A stretch of DNA of 58,519 bases, from contig DASVWD010000090.1 of NCBI GenBank assembly GCA_036389795.1, forward strand, positions 1 through 58,519, read 5' to 3'. This document shows positions 18,812 to 41,153 of this stretch, piece after piece; the first letter of the stretch is position 1, and the number at the start of each line of letters is the position of its first letter. This stretch comes from Longimicrobium sp. (GTDB lineage: Bacteria; Gemmatimonadota; Gemmatimonadetes; Longimicrobiales; Longimicrobiaceae). The notes beneath the pieces are model-generated. The model had not been told where the DNA came from. It did no database searches and saw only the letters and a list, made by a program, of their open reading frames with translations. The translations under genes were made by a program, and so were the position numbers.

Positions 18812-20020
18812 GTGAAGGTCCTGTACCTGGTCACGGCGTACGCCCGCGACCCGTCCGACGTCATCACCCCCTGGCTGGTGGAGACGATCCGGCGCCTGCG
18901 GGAGCGCGGCGTCACCGTCGAGGTGCTGGCGCCCGCGTACCGGGGCCTGGCGACGCAGGTCGTGGGCGGCGTGACGGTGCACCGCTTCCGCTACGCGCCG
19001 CGCGGCTGGGAGACGCTCACGCACGACCAGACGGCGCCCGACCGGATCCGCGAGCGGCCGCTGTTCCTGGGGCTGGTCCCCGGCTACGTGGCGGCGGGCT
19101 CGCGCGCGGCGGCCAGGCTGGCGCGGGCGGGCGGCTTCGACGTGCTGCACGCCTTCTGGCCCGTCCCGCAGGGGGTGCTGGGGCTCTGGGCGAAGCGCCG
19201 CTCGGGGCTGCCGCTGGTCTCCACCTTCTTCGGGGTGGAGCTGACCTGGATGGAGAAGCAGTTCCCCTTCCTGGCGCCGCTGCTCGTCCGCATCGTGCGC
19301 GGCTCCGACGCGGTGACGGCGATCTCCACCTACACGGCGGAGCGCCTGCGGCGGCAGGTCCCCGGCGTGGAGCCGGCGATCATCCCCTTCGGCGCGGCGG
19401 TGGACGCCCCGCCCGAGCCGCCGCCGTACACCTACGACGCCCACCGCCCCTTCGACCTGGTCTTCGTCGGGCGCCTGGTGGAGCGCAAGGGCGTGCACGT
19501 GCTGCTGGACGCGCTGGCCATGCTCCCGCCGGAGCGCCGCGTGCGCCTGCACGTGGTGGGCGACGGGCCGGAGCGCGGGCGGCTGGAGGAGCGGGCCGCG
19601 CGCCTGGGCCTCGGCGGGCGCGCGGTCTTCCACGGCTTCGTCTCGAAGGACGAGCTGCAGGCGCATCTCACGACCTGCGACGCCTTCGTCCTCCCCGCGG
19701 TGGTCGACGCCAAGGGCGACACCGAGGGGCTGGGCGTGGTGCTGCTGGAGGCGATGAGCTACGCGCGGCCGGTGATCGCGAGCGCGGCGGGCGGCATCCT
19801 GGACATCGTGCAGGGCGGGCGCAACGGCTGGCTGGTCCCCCCCGGCGACGCGGCCGCCCTCGCCGCCGCGGTCTCGGCCTGCATGGACGACCCGGACCGC
19901 GCGCGGACGCTGGGGCTCCACGGCCGCGAGGACGTGGAGGCCGGGTTCTCGTGGGACGTGATCGCGGACCGGCTGGCGGAGATCTACCGGCGGGTGGCGG
20001 GGCGGGATCGTGCCGATTGA
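18812..20020 (+). CDS. Family 4 glycosyltransferase
   Basis: 402 residues, GT-B fold. N-terminal LYLVTAYARDPSDVITPWLVETIRRLRERGVTVEVLAP; acceptor/donor linker LVFVGRLVERKGVHVLLDAL; C-terminal nucleotide-sugar motif with EX7E-type AKGDTEGLGVVLLEAMSYARPVIASAAGGILDIV. A sugar is added to a lipid-linked or surface glycan. GTG at 18812 is inferred; no ribosome site is obvious, and a weak TTGTGA/TATCTT promoter (about 18735-18763) may serve it. Belongs with the GT2, methyltransferase, GT4, YfhO and flippase genes as a glycan cluster. Confidence 0.88.
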   Translation: MKVLYLVTAYARDPSDVITPWLVETIRRLRERGVTVEVLAPAYRGLATQVVGGVTVHRFRYAPRGWETLTHDQTAPDRIRERPLFLGLVPGYVAAGSRAAARLARAGGFDVLHAFWPVPQGVLGLWAKRRSGLPLVSTFFGVELTWMEKQFPFLAPLLVRIVRGSDAVTAISTYTAERLRRQVPGVEPAIIPFGAAVDAPPEPPPYTYDAHRPFDLVFVGRLVERKGVHVLLDALAMLPPERRVRLHVVGDGPERGRLEERAARLGLGGRAVFHGFVSKDELQAHLTTCDAFVLPAVVDAKGDTEGLGVVLLEAMSYARPVIASAAGGILDIVQGGRNGWLVPPGDAAALAAAVSACMDDPDRARTLGLHGREDVEAGFSWDVIADRLAEIYRRVAGRDRAD

Positions 20021-20040
20021 CGGACGATCGCGCCGCCGCG

Positions 20041-20100
20041 GGGGCCCTCACCCGGCCGCCTTAGGGCGTCCACCCTCTCCCAACTTCGGGAGAGGGTACT
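20041..20100 (-). repeat. DUF559-associated repeat, copy A (inverted)
   Basis: Reverse complement reads AGTACCCTCTCCCGAAGTTG, then GGAGAGGGTGGACGCCCTAAGGCGGCCGGGTGAGGGCC. It is oriented opposite to copies B and C, so it faces copy B across the DUF559 gene. Inner hairpin CCCTCTCCC/GGGAGAGGG. Confidence 0.85.
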
Positions 20101-20176
20101 TTGCAGAGTGTGGTGGTGCGCGCGGGACACGGTCGCGGAAGAGATATCCAACGGACCTTGAGTGCGGAGGCGGCGG

Positions 20177-20557
20177 ATGAGGCAGGGGCGGATTCGCGGG
20201 GTGTCGCCGGAGCTGCGGGAGGCGGCGCGGGGGCTGCGGAAGGAGATGACGTACGCCGAGCGGTTGCTGTGGAACGGCATCCGGGGGTGGAAGGTCGGCG
20301 GCGGTGGGGCGAAGTTCCGGAGGCAGCATCCGCTGGGACACTTCATCCTCGACTTCTACTGCCACGCCGCGAAGCTGTGCGTCGAGGTCGACGGCGGCAT
20401 CCACGACCTGCAGCCCGAGCGCGACGCGGAGCGGGACGCCTGCCTCGCCGCCGCCGGCATCAAGACCCTGCGCTTCCGCAACGAGGAAGTGTTCGGCGAC
20501 ATCCGCGCCGTCCTCCGCCGCATCGAGCAGGAGGTGTGGCATCGAACTGCGCCGTAA
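20177..20557 (+). CDS. DUF559 (Vsr-like PD-(D/E)XK) endonuclease-like protein
   Basis: 126 residues from ATG 20177 (GGAGG six bases upstream); a GTG at 20162 would add five Arg-rich residues. DUF559 signature: RGLRKEMTYAERLLWNGIRG, then FRRQHPLGHFILDFYCHAAKLCVEVDGGIHD, where ILDFYC and VEVDGG provide the Asp/Glu of a Vsr-type catalytic core, and LRFRNEEVFGDIRAVLRRI ends it. Related proteins are nicking or mismatch-type endonucleases, but this family's substrate is not known. The gene is enclosed by inverted repeat copies A (20041-20100) and B (20598-20661), and a decayed second gene end follows. Confidence 0.85.
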   Translation: MRQGRIRGVSPELREAARGLRKEMTYAERLLWNGIRGWKVGGGGAKFRRQHPLGHFILDFYCHAAKLCVEVDGGIHDLQPERDAERDACLAAAGIKTLRFRNEEVFGDIRAVLRRIEQEVWHRTAP

Positions 20558-20597
20558 TCACTTCTCGGCGCAGAGATGCGAATGTGTACGGACCGTT

Positions 20598-20661
20598 GAG
20601 TACCCTCTCCCGCAGTTTGGGAGAGGGTGGACGCCCTGAGGCGGCCGGGTGAGGGCCCCCC
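20598..20661 (+). repeat. DUF559-associated repeat, copy B
   Basis: GAGTACCCTCTCCCGCAGTT, then TGGGAGAGGGTGGACGCCCTGAGGCGGCCGGGTGAGGGCC. Inverted relative to copy A, direct relative to C. The preceding 20 bases (TGTACGGACCGTT) also resemble those before copy C. Confidence 0.85.
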
Positions 20662-20714
20662 GCGCCGTCCTCCGCCGCATCGAGCACGAAGCCTGGCATC
20701 GCACCGCGCCGTGA
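20661..20714 (+). pseudogene. Remnant of a second DUF559 gene (3' end only)
   Basis: 54 bases match the last 54 bases of the intact DUF559 gene (20504-20557) at 47 positions by eye, preserving frame and stop: it reads RAVLRRIEHEAWHRTAP and TGA. The 5' body is absent; copy B of the repeat abuts the break directly. A deletion derivative of a repeat-gene-repeat unit is the simplest reading. Confidence 0.8.
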
Positions 20715-20759
20715 ACAACCTTGTGTGGCGCCGGGACAGGGATGCGCACCGGACCGGTG

Positions 20760-20825
20760 AAGTACCCTCTCCCGAAGTTGGGAGAGGGTGGACGCCCTGA
20801 GGCGGCCGGGTGAGGGTCCCCCGCG
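20760..20825 (+). repeat. DUF559-associated repeat, copy C
   Basis: AAGTACCCTCTCCCGAAGTT, then GGGAGAGGGTGGACGCCCTGAGGCGGCCGGGTGAGGGTCC. Direct repeat of copy B, about 160 nt downstream. A fourth, gene-less copy is at 41097-41153. Confidence 0.85.
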
Positions 20826-20880: not shown

Positions 20881-21783
20881 TTGAACACCGCCGAGACCCG
20901 CGTCAGCCGCACCGACACCTCGCACGTGGAGCCCCGCTACCTGGCGCTGCTGGAAGCGGAGCGTGCCGCCTGGTGGAGCTCGGAGAACTTCGACACCTGG
21001 AAGAACCTCTACGTCAGCGAGTACGCGCGCGGCTTCTACGTGGTCGACACGCTGCGCAGGTACGTGCCCGACTTCGAGGTGAGCGGCGCCCGCGTGCTCG
21101 ACATCGGCTGCGGCGACGCGGGGGTGCTGATCGCCTTCGCCGAGCGCGGGGCCCGGTGCGCGGGGATCGAGCTGGACGAGAAGTCGCTGGAGCGCGGGCG
21201 GGTGCGCGCGGAGGAGCACGGCGTGGAGGTGGACCTGCGCAGGGGGATCGCCGAGGAGCTCCCCTGGCCTGACGGCAGCTTCGACCTGGTGATCCTCGAC
21301 AACGTGCTGGAGCACGTCACCGACCGCGGGAAGACGCTCCGCGAGATCCACCGCGTGCTGCGCCCCGGCGGGCTCCTCTACCAGGTGACGCCCAAGCCGT
21401 TCGCGCTCTACAGCCTGTGGAACGACCCGCACTACGACCTGGCGGGGCTGGTGCTGATGCCGCGGAGCATGCAGATCTGGTACTTCGAGAAGGTGCGCGG
21501 CGGCGGCGAGGGCACCTACGACGTGGGCGTGATCCCCACCCGCCCGCGGCTCAGGAAGATGCTGCGCCAGGCGGGGTTCGAGCCGGTGGTCAGCCCGCGC
21601 GAGCTGTGGGTGCACTACCTGCGCAACCGCATCGCCCGCCCCGAGGAGGTGCGCCCGGGGCTCAAGCGGAAGCTGGCCTCCTTCTTCGGCAGCCGCCGCT
21701 GGCCGTTCGAGAACCCCCTGATGCGCTGGCTCTGGGACGTGTCGATCGGGTCCAACTTCTTCATCGCGCGGCGGAAGGCGTGA
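20881..21783 (+). CDS. Class I SAM methyltransferase (UbiE/Methyltransf_11-like)
   Basis: 300 residues from TTG 20881, with GAGAG just upstream; there is no in-frame ATG that avoids the repeat. Motif I VLDIGCGDAGVLIAFAERG (about 69-87), acidic end of strand 2 (GIELDE), motif IV DLVILDNVLEHVTD and post-motif LREIHRVLRPGGLLYQVTPKPFALYS identify a Methyltransf_11 fold. The C-terminal half (LRKMLRQAGFEPV, RWPFENPLMRWLWDVSIGSNFFI) recurs in methyltransferases of polysaccharide clusters. It probably methylates a sugar or lipid acceptor in the adjacent glycan pathway; this is inference. Confidence 0.83.
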   Translation: MNTAETRVSRTDTSHVEPRYLALLEAERAAWWSSENFDTWKNLYVSEYARGFYVVDTLRRYVPDFEVSGARVLDIGCGDAGVLIAFAERGARCAGIELDEKSLERGRVRAEEHGVEVDLRRGIAEELPWPDGSFDLVILDNVLEHVTDRGKTLREIHRVLRPGGLLYQVTPKPFALYSLWNDPHYDLAGLVLMPRSMQIWYFEKVRGGGEGTYDVGVIPTRPRLRKMLRQAGFEPVVSPRELWVHYLRNRIARPEEVRPGLKRKLASFFGSRRWPFENPLMRWLWDVSIGSNFFIARRKA

Positions 21784-21826: not shown

Positions 21827-22010
21827 TGTCATCCCGAGGGAGCGTCCGGCCGGAATCCTGATCTCGAGCGGGAGGTGGGACGCTCCCGAAGGATCTATGG
21901 GCGGCCTCGCACGGGTCCCGCGGTTCCGTTCGGAGGCAGCCCATAGATCCTTCGGCCCTGCCGTCTTCCGTGTGGACGCGGGTTCCGTCTGGCCGGGCCT
22001 CAGGATGACA
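21827..22010. repeat. TGTCATCC...GGATGACA bordered palindromic element (E3)
   Basis: Termini TGTCATCCCGAGGG and CCTCAGGATGACA. The core has GACGCTCCCGAAGGATCTAT followed by GGGC and its counterpart GCCCATAGATCCTTCGG, i.e. an internal inverted repeat within a bordered element of about 184 bp. Confidence 0.75.
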
Positions 22011-41041: not shown

Positions 41042-41153
41042 CAGGGGAGAGGGGACAGGGGACAGGGAACAGCCGGCACGTACCGAGCGCGTGAAGTCCA
41101 CCCTCTCCCAGACCTGGGAGAGGGTTGCCGCTCTAAGGCGGCGGGTGAGGGCC
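41042..41153 (+). repeat. CCCTGT run and gene-less DUF559-associated repeat, copy D
   Basis: 41042-41072 is the reverse complement of the CCCTGT run at 36473-36501. 41097-41153 matches the repeats around the DUF559 gene (CCCTCTCCCAGACCTGGGAGAGG, then CTCTAAGGCGGCGGGTGAGG), but no DUF559 gene is near. Confidence 0.7.

Follow-up and report, generated by a model that had tools for sequence, protein, structure and literature searches.

Knowledge of box C repeats goes back to the 1990s. DUF559 is a large protein family for which we know of no agreed function. Rickettsia palindromic elements (RPE) occur as in-frame insertions within essential genes and, to our knowledge, encode no nuclease; the homing endonuclease I-Bth0305I is intron-borne. 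In the REP/RAYT system a small nuclease gene of the HUH/Y1 type lies between inverted structured repeats, which are found scattered singly or in short pairs as well, and the repeat subtype is matched to the gene. The repeat called box C, PIT or intrastrand triplex motif (TM) was reported in more than 260 genomes, with 23 copies listed in E. coli MG1655 (Holder et al., 2015, PMC4666352). Triplex formation in vitro was demonstrated there for TM-ECO, not for the copies described below, and no gene or mobility function was tied to the motif. From sequence comparison, we propose here that stand-alone DUF559 genes are the partner of this repeat. The link appears to be undescribed: among papers naming DUF559, ycjD or the title of Holder et al., none ties DUF559 to repeats in its title or abstract, preprints and most subscription journals being outside this scope.

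The window analysed is contig DASVWD010000090.1 of Longimicrobium sp. (assembly GCA_036389795.1; genome of 7.5 Mb in 285 contigs), 58,519 nt in length. A glycosyltransferase gene is followed in order by repeat A, a DUF559 gene, repeat B, a gene remnant, repeat C and a methyltransferase gene:

18812-20020, glycosyltransferase gene, left neighbour of the A-DUF559-B-remnant-C unit
20040-20101, minus strand, terminal repeat A, left end, 97% complementary to C over 62 nt; hairpin 20072-20097, third strand CCCTCACCC at 20045-20053 pointing outward, small second stem in between
20162-20557, plus strand, intact DUF559 (PF04480, E=4.5e-32) gene, predicted Vsr-like PD-(D/E)XK nuclease
20598-20661, plus strand, terminal repeat B, right end; third strand GGGTGAGGG at 20647-20655, outward
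20661-20714, plus strand, remnant, the last 18 codons of another DUF559 gene (47/54, frame and stop kept)
20760-20822, plus strand, terminal repeat C, end of a decayed second unit
ending at 21783, methyltransferase gene, right neighbour of the same unit
41097-41153, plus strand, solo repeat D, gene-less full-length copy of subtype TGCCGCTCTAAGGCGGC

Repeat A is inverted with respect to both C (20040-20101 against 20760-20821) and B, with which it shares a 44-nt core that is 98% complementary. The DUF559 protein has 131 residues and matches PF04480 with 110.6 bits; translation more probably begins at the ATG at 20177, which follows GGAGGCGGCGG, than at the GTG at 20162, and this would give 126 residues. 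The remnant aligns with 20504-20557, the last 54 nt of the window gene itself, and has its own stop; the translated ends of the two read RAVLRRIEHEAWHRTAP and RAVLRRIEQEVWHRTAP, each followed by a stop codon. The packaging of the gene between A and B, the DUF559 remnant between B and C, and the gene-less copy D had all been proposed in the initial annotation, and all three stand. Copy D belongs to a different subtype from A-C, with the second stem TGCCGC/GCGGCG. The repeats are not chance occurrences, because at 86% identity or more the Longimicrobium genome contains at least 41 matches to the 64-nt repeat, and a looser hairpin pattern occurs there at 257 sites compared with 2 for a reversed-pattern control. 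A second inverted pair, CGAAGGATCTATGGGC / GCCCATAGATCCTTCGG, is present downstream of the methyltransferase gene (21880-21965).

In each copy of the repeat, the hairpin ACCCTCTCCC/GGGAGAGGGT is followed by a small second one and then by GGGTGAGGG. The stem of the second hairpin varies by subtype (GGCGGC/GCCGCC, TGCCGC/GCGGCG or GGACGCC/GGCGGCC). The arrangement CCCTCTCCC-loop-GGGAGAGGG-spacer-GGGTGAGGG is shared with box C, as are the multicopy, intergenic occurrence and the inverted pairs, and copy 9 of E. coli adjoins the gene ycjD. Copies A, B and C have the pyrimidine arm, the purine arm and the third purine strand that characterise the triplex motif, and are multicopy. The initial annotation took the repeat for a possibly undescribed class; judged by its sequence, it is a member of the box C / PIT / TM family (Holder et al., 2015, PMC4666352). 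It differs from box C as published in being the matched ends of DUF559 genes, in having many sequence subtypes, and in occurring also in frame inside genes.

The third strand was compared with the purine arm at DUF559 ends, allowing T opposite A. The better match was in mirror orientation in 65 cases and direct in 5, with 31 equal; after shuffling of the third-strand region the ratio was about 8:8:10. The mirror score per arm was 0.89 as found, and fell to 0.66 (sd 0.013) when third strands were re-paired among elements. Shuffling and re-pairing were used here since the mirror bias of 21:2 in control flanks is no null, as these may be solo motifs. On the basis of the mirror excess and the drop on re-pairing, arm and third strand co-vary in the way that a purine-motif triplex demands. 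This constraint points to DNA rather than RNA, because RNA, according to Holder et al., does not form purine triplexes (PMC4666352). It also bears on a rival explanation, under which the repeats would serve as transcription terminators or as hairpins stabilising mRNA beside a small gene, with nothing mobile about them. G/C-rich hairpins next to genes are indeed common, and the RNA folding energies are strong. However, control genes lack such hairpins, a mirror third strand would be useless in an RNA hairpin, PIT elements acted neither as promoters nor as terminators in E. coli (PMC4666352), and copies are found in frame within coding regions. We consider this explanation very improbable.

The association with DUF559 was analysed using an inverted-repeat score, obtained by local alignment of the upstream flank with the reverse complement of the downstream flank. 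Each of the four stand-alone DUF559 genes in the Longimicrobium genome is enclosed by matched inverted hairpins, with a different subtype for each gene. The end subtype of the element on contig 46 occurs about 32 times in this genome at 89% identity or more. Across the family, 23 of 25 stand-alone loci score 26-79, each with its own repeat subtype, while DUF559 domains fused into larger proteins score 12 or less. Wrongly paired family flanks have a mean of 15 with high outliers, which are taken to be pairs of orthologous elements. The arrangement seen in the window is widespread among stand-alone DUF559 genes and is no peculiarity of this locus. In a cross-phylum sample of 80 loci, a score of at least 20 was found for 29/72 DUF559 loci and 1/184 control ORFs from the same loci. 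The matching segments are mostly a G/C-rich hairpin plus third strand, and come from Bacteroidota, Chloroflexota, Pseudomonadota, Cyanobacteriota, Myxococcota and others.

Defined structurally, the triplex motif is present in 116 of 205 DUF559 flanks and in 15 of 425 control flanks. Where both ends could be oriented, 28 loci are out/out, 6 in/in and 4 discordant; the inward-facing calls are partly real, as some proteobacterial elements have both ends inward. DUF559 genes without the repeats do occur: fused domains lack them, and 30 of the 100 loci with both flanks, stand-alone or in frame, have no detectable motif. In the Longimicrobium genome no DUF559 remnants were found beside the other repeats, beyond the window's own copies. 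The association of DUF559 with the motif is nonetheless near certain. Two further observations concern individual loci. A weak DUF559 domain (27 bits) lies in a 3083-residue open frame on contig 101 (L035) with no flanking repeats, and in one element (L047) the right hairpin is split by an insert of about 150 bp with inverted ends GAGGCTGTGTGAAAACTC...GAGTTTTCACACAGCCTC.

The same relationship is found at the level of whole genomes. The hairpin pattern was counted in 31 genomes, comprising the Longimicrobium genome and relatives. At least 10 sites are present in 14/14 genomes with a strong stand-alone DUF559 (up to 474 sites) and in 2/17 without (p=5e-7, kinship ignored), both of the latter being incomplete assemblies; the reversed-pattern control gave 0-9. 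Among 114 genomes of another class, at least 4 sites are present in 16/22 with DUF559 and 11/92 without (p=4e-8, kinship ignored). Motif number follows DUF559 presence in both samples (p about 1e-7, phylogeny uncorrected).

The motif-bearing genomes without DUF559 (the 11/92) could mean that another enzyme, such as a RAYT, an IS transposase or the host recombination machinery, moves the repeats, with DUF559 as cargo or hitchhiker. TM-ECO copies also differ among E. coli strains, for which Holder et al. invoke instability and slippage (PMC4666352). This explanation is unlikely given that DUF559 is exceptional among genes, as the control ORFs show, and is so in many phyla; that the repeat subtypes match on both sides of DUF559; and that Holder et al. 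never found transposase or integrase remnants near the motif (PMC4666352). The RAYTs of the Longimicrobium genome, moreover, have different repeats of their own. The two Y1_Tnp genes of RAYT type in the Longimicrobium genome (L036, L037) lie between inverted repeats scoring 54 and 50, which are GAAGTCCGCCTTCGCGGACT-like. A RAYT as owner of the triplex motif was accordingly ruled out.

The initial annotation had compared the locus to REP palindromes with a Vsr-like nuclease in place of the RAYT. The parallel holds, because RAYTs of the same genome sit between other inverted repeats. It does not extend to the enzyme or to the palindrome: no Y1/HUH gene lies between the window repeats, the gene there being a DUF559 of the PD-(D/E)XK type, unrelated to HUH/Y1; the repeat is a hairpin with a mirror third strand; and on reading, the foot of the palindrome has no GTAG or CGTC tag, the hairpins having AGTA or GTCC before them and GGACGCC or TGCCGC after them. 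On this comparison, two pairings of repeat and nuclease coexist in the Longimicrobium genome, and DUF559 with its motif resembles REP/RAYT and is not a member of it, since the RAYT repeats differ in type from the triplex motif.

An alignment of 62 DUF559 proteins has invariant D64, E75, D77, H81 and D88, among others, and the window protein matches the PF04480 domain with its acidic site (D, ExD, H, D) intact. The AlphaFold2 model (pLDDT 87) is most similar to 3HRL, a solved DUF559 protein (Z 15.1, rmsd 1.5 over 94), followed by the catalytic domain of I-Bth0305I (3R3P; Z 12.3, rmsd 2.2 over 94) and Vsr (Z 9.5, rmsd 2.4 over 98), and more weakly TnsA (Z 6.4). A profile search also finds I-Bth0305I from sequence (E=2.1e-5). 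Unlike that enzyme, the DUF559 elements have no intron or intein, and the insert in leucyl-tRNA synthetase (LeuRS; see below) remains in open frame. Vsr and Caulobacter VsrA share the predicted fold and the DUF559 domain, respectively; they differ from the window gene in its setting between a glycosyltransferase and an unrelated methyltransferase, with triplex motifs on both sides. Assignment to a defence system was rejected, as PADLOC gave a weak partial match to DpdF and nothing more. That a relative of a homing endonuclease sits amid dispersed structured repeats suggests copying by a homing-like route, or else cleavage of the ends.

Evidence for movement comes from comparison of orthologous sites, at several of which the element is present in some genomes and absent in others. 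In five relatives the glycosyltransferase-methyltransferase junction lacks both DUF559 and motif, and measures 120-380 nt compared with about 925. In Bacteroidota, a Paceibacterota bin and others, DUF559 together with its ends is found in frame inside conserved genes. One host, in several Bacteroidota, is LeuRS; by eye, from the flanking residues, others are valS, hisF, metH, acetyl-CoA synthetase and hsdM. RPE share this in-frame insertion, but the DUF559 unit can include a whole DUF559 domain. The LeuRS insertion point lies between the equivalents of T. thermophilus LeuRS residues 236 and 243. DUF559 with its ends is present in six of 30 LeuRS loci (L191-L220). A further locus has a DUF559-like insert whose ends are eroded, another has the two ends but no gene, and another a lone motif; the majority are empty. 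The spacing from NWIGRS to VFTTRPDT is 165-179 residues where DUF559 and ends are present, and about 31 where the site is empty. Likewise, some E. coli strains entirely lack the motif pair TM-ECO 1 and 2 at hrpB-mrcB.

The LeuRS linker of relatives contains other in-frame repeats, of an AAATTC type (NSKFKI; L200, L201, L203, L207) and, in L209, of a HSELNSES/MLKLVQHD type. This linker gives the impression of a permissive insertion site used by several families of repeats.

Of the features of a classical insertion sequence, inverted ends are present, and no target duplication is recognisable at LeuRS, hrpB-mrcB or lldD-trmL, where the empty sites have diverged. The DUF559 protein tree is poorly resolved, and phyla are partly mixed on it (23 changes, minimum 12), which is suggestive of transfer. 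Taken from these sequence comparisons, mobility of units of the A-DUF559-B type is very likely.

In E. coli K-12 the DUF559 gene is ycjD (1351407-1351760), and TM-ECO 9 (1351204-1351239) lies just beyond its 3' end. A 35/39 copy of the 3' end of ycjD separates TM-ECO 9 from a second, partial motif, an unusual arrangement that matches the window. No motif was found on the 5' side of ycjD. A long palindrome, TTCACCTCATTCTGACAAAAGATTAAATCTTGTCAGAATGAGGTGAT, which does not resemble the triplex motif, overlaps the start of the gene (L079 3752-3803). Extra DUF559 3'-end copies joined to the motif are found in four distant bacteria (the window, L033; E. coli, L079; L104; and L112), and no duplicated 5' ends were found except for one whole-gene tandem copy (L086). 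This last is a pair of DUF559 genes about 0.8 kb apart, possibly a recent duplication of an element.

In E. coli of phylogroups A, B1 and C the gene ycjD occupies one conserved site; a clean empty site was not obtained, as other strains have eefRABCD there. Its fixed position is consistent with DUF559 being a host repair or structure-specific nuclease, domesticated and immobile, with the flanking motifs as its regulatory or substrate sites, maintained so that non-B DNA can be processed. The predicted Vsr-like fold fits this, as does Caulobacter VsrA, which has a DUF559 domain, is tied to cytosine methylation and to SOS and DNA damage, and has a proposed role in repair (PMC12907096). Some DUF559 members may, because of VsrA, have a repair function. 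As a general explanation it is slightly less probable again than movement by another enzyme: the several subtypes per genome, the in-frame LeuRS insertions, the empty sites and the dispersed copies of subtypes look like spread.

On the basis of these observations, we hypothesise that the A-gene-B unit is a minimal mobile element, with the DUF559 nuclease acting on its own triplex-forming ends, and give this a probability of roughly two in three, its catalysis being inferred. The element would consist of one small DUF559 nuclease between two structured DNA ends. Each end, when single-stranded, would form a pyrimidine/purine hairpin, whose purine arm is joined by the mirror purine strand as an intrastrand triplex. 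This nuclease most probably recognises ends of its own type, and would cut or nick there and/or at a target. Copies would then spread via host repair or replication, as with a homing endonuclease or a REP/RAYT pair, and solo ends (the box C / TM repeats) would be left behind. DUF559 is likely to be the enzyme that works on the ends. Against a mobile element are the lack of a recognised target-site duplication, the 30/100 motif-free loci, the 11/92 DUF559-less genomes with at least 4 motifs, and the repair role proposed for Caulobacter VsrA.

We incline, if only just, to a broader proposal: that DUF559 with triplex ends is an unrecognised and widespread minimal mobile element, in which a Vsr/homing-type nuclease recognises an intrastrand triplex, which inserts between genes and in frame in essential genes, and from which the box C / PIT / TM repeats of hundreds of bacteria derive. 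We found nothing on what makes or moves box C repeats, and the link to DUF559 turns this into one testable question, including in E. coli K-12. If the proposal is true, it would provide a biological role for intrastrand triplex DNA, and would represent a second, unrelated invention of the REP/RAYT arrangement.
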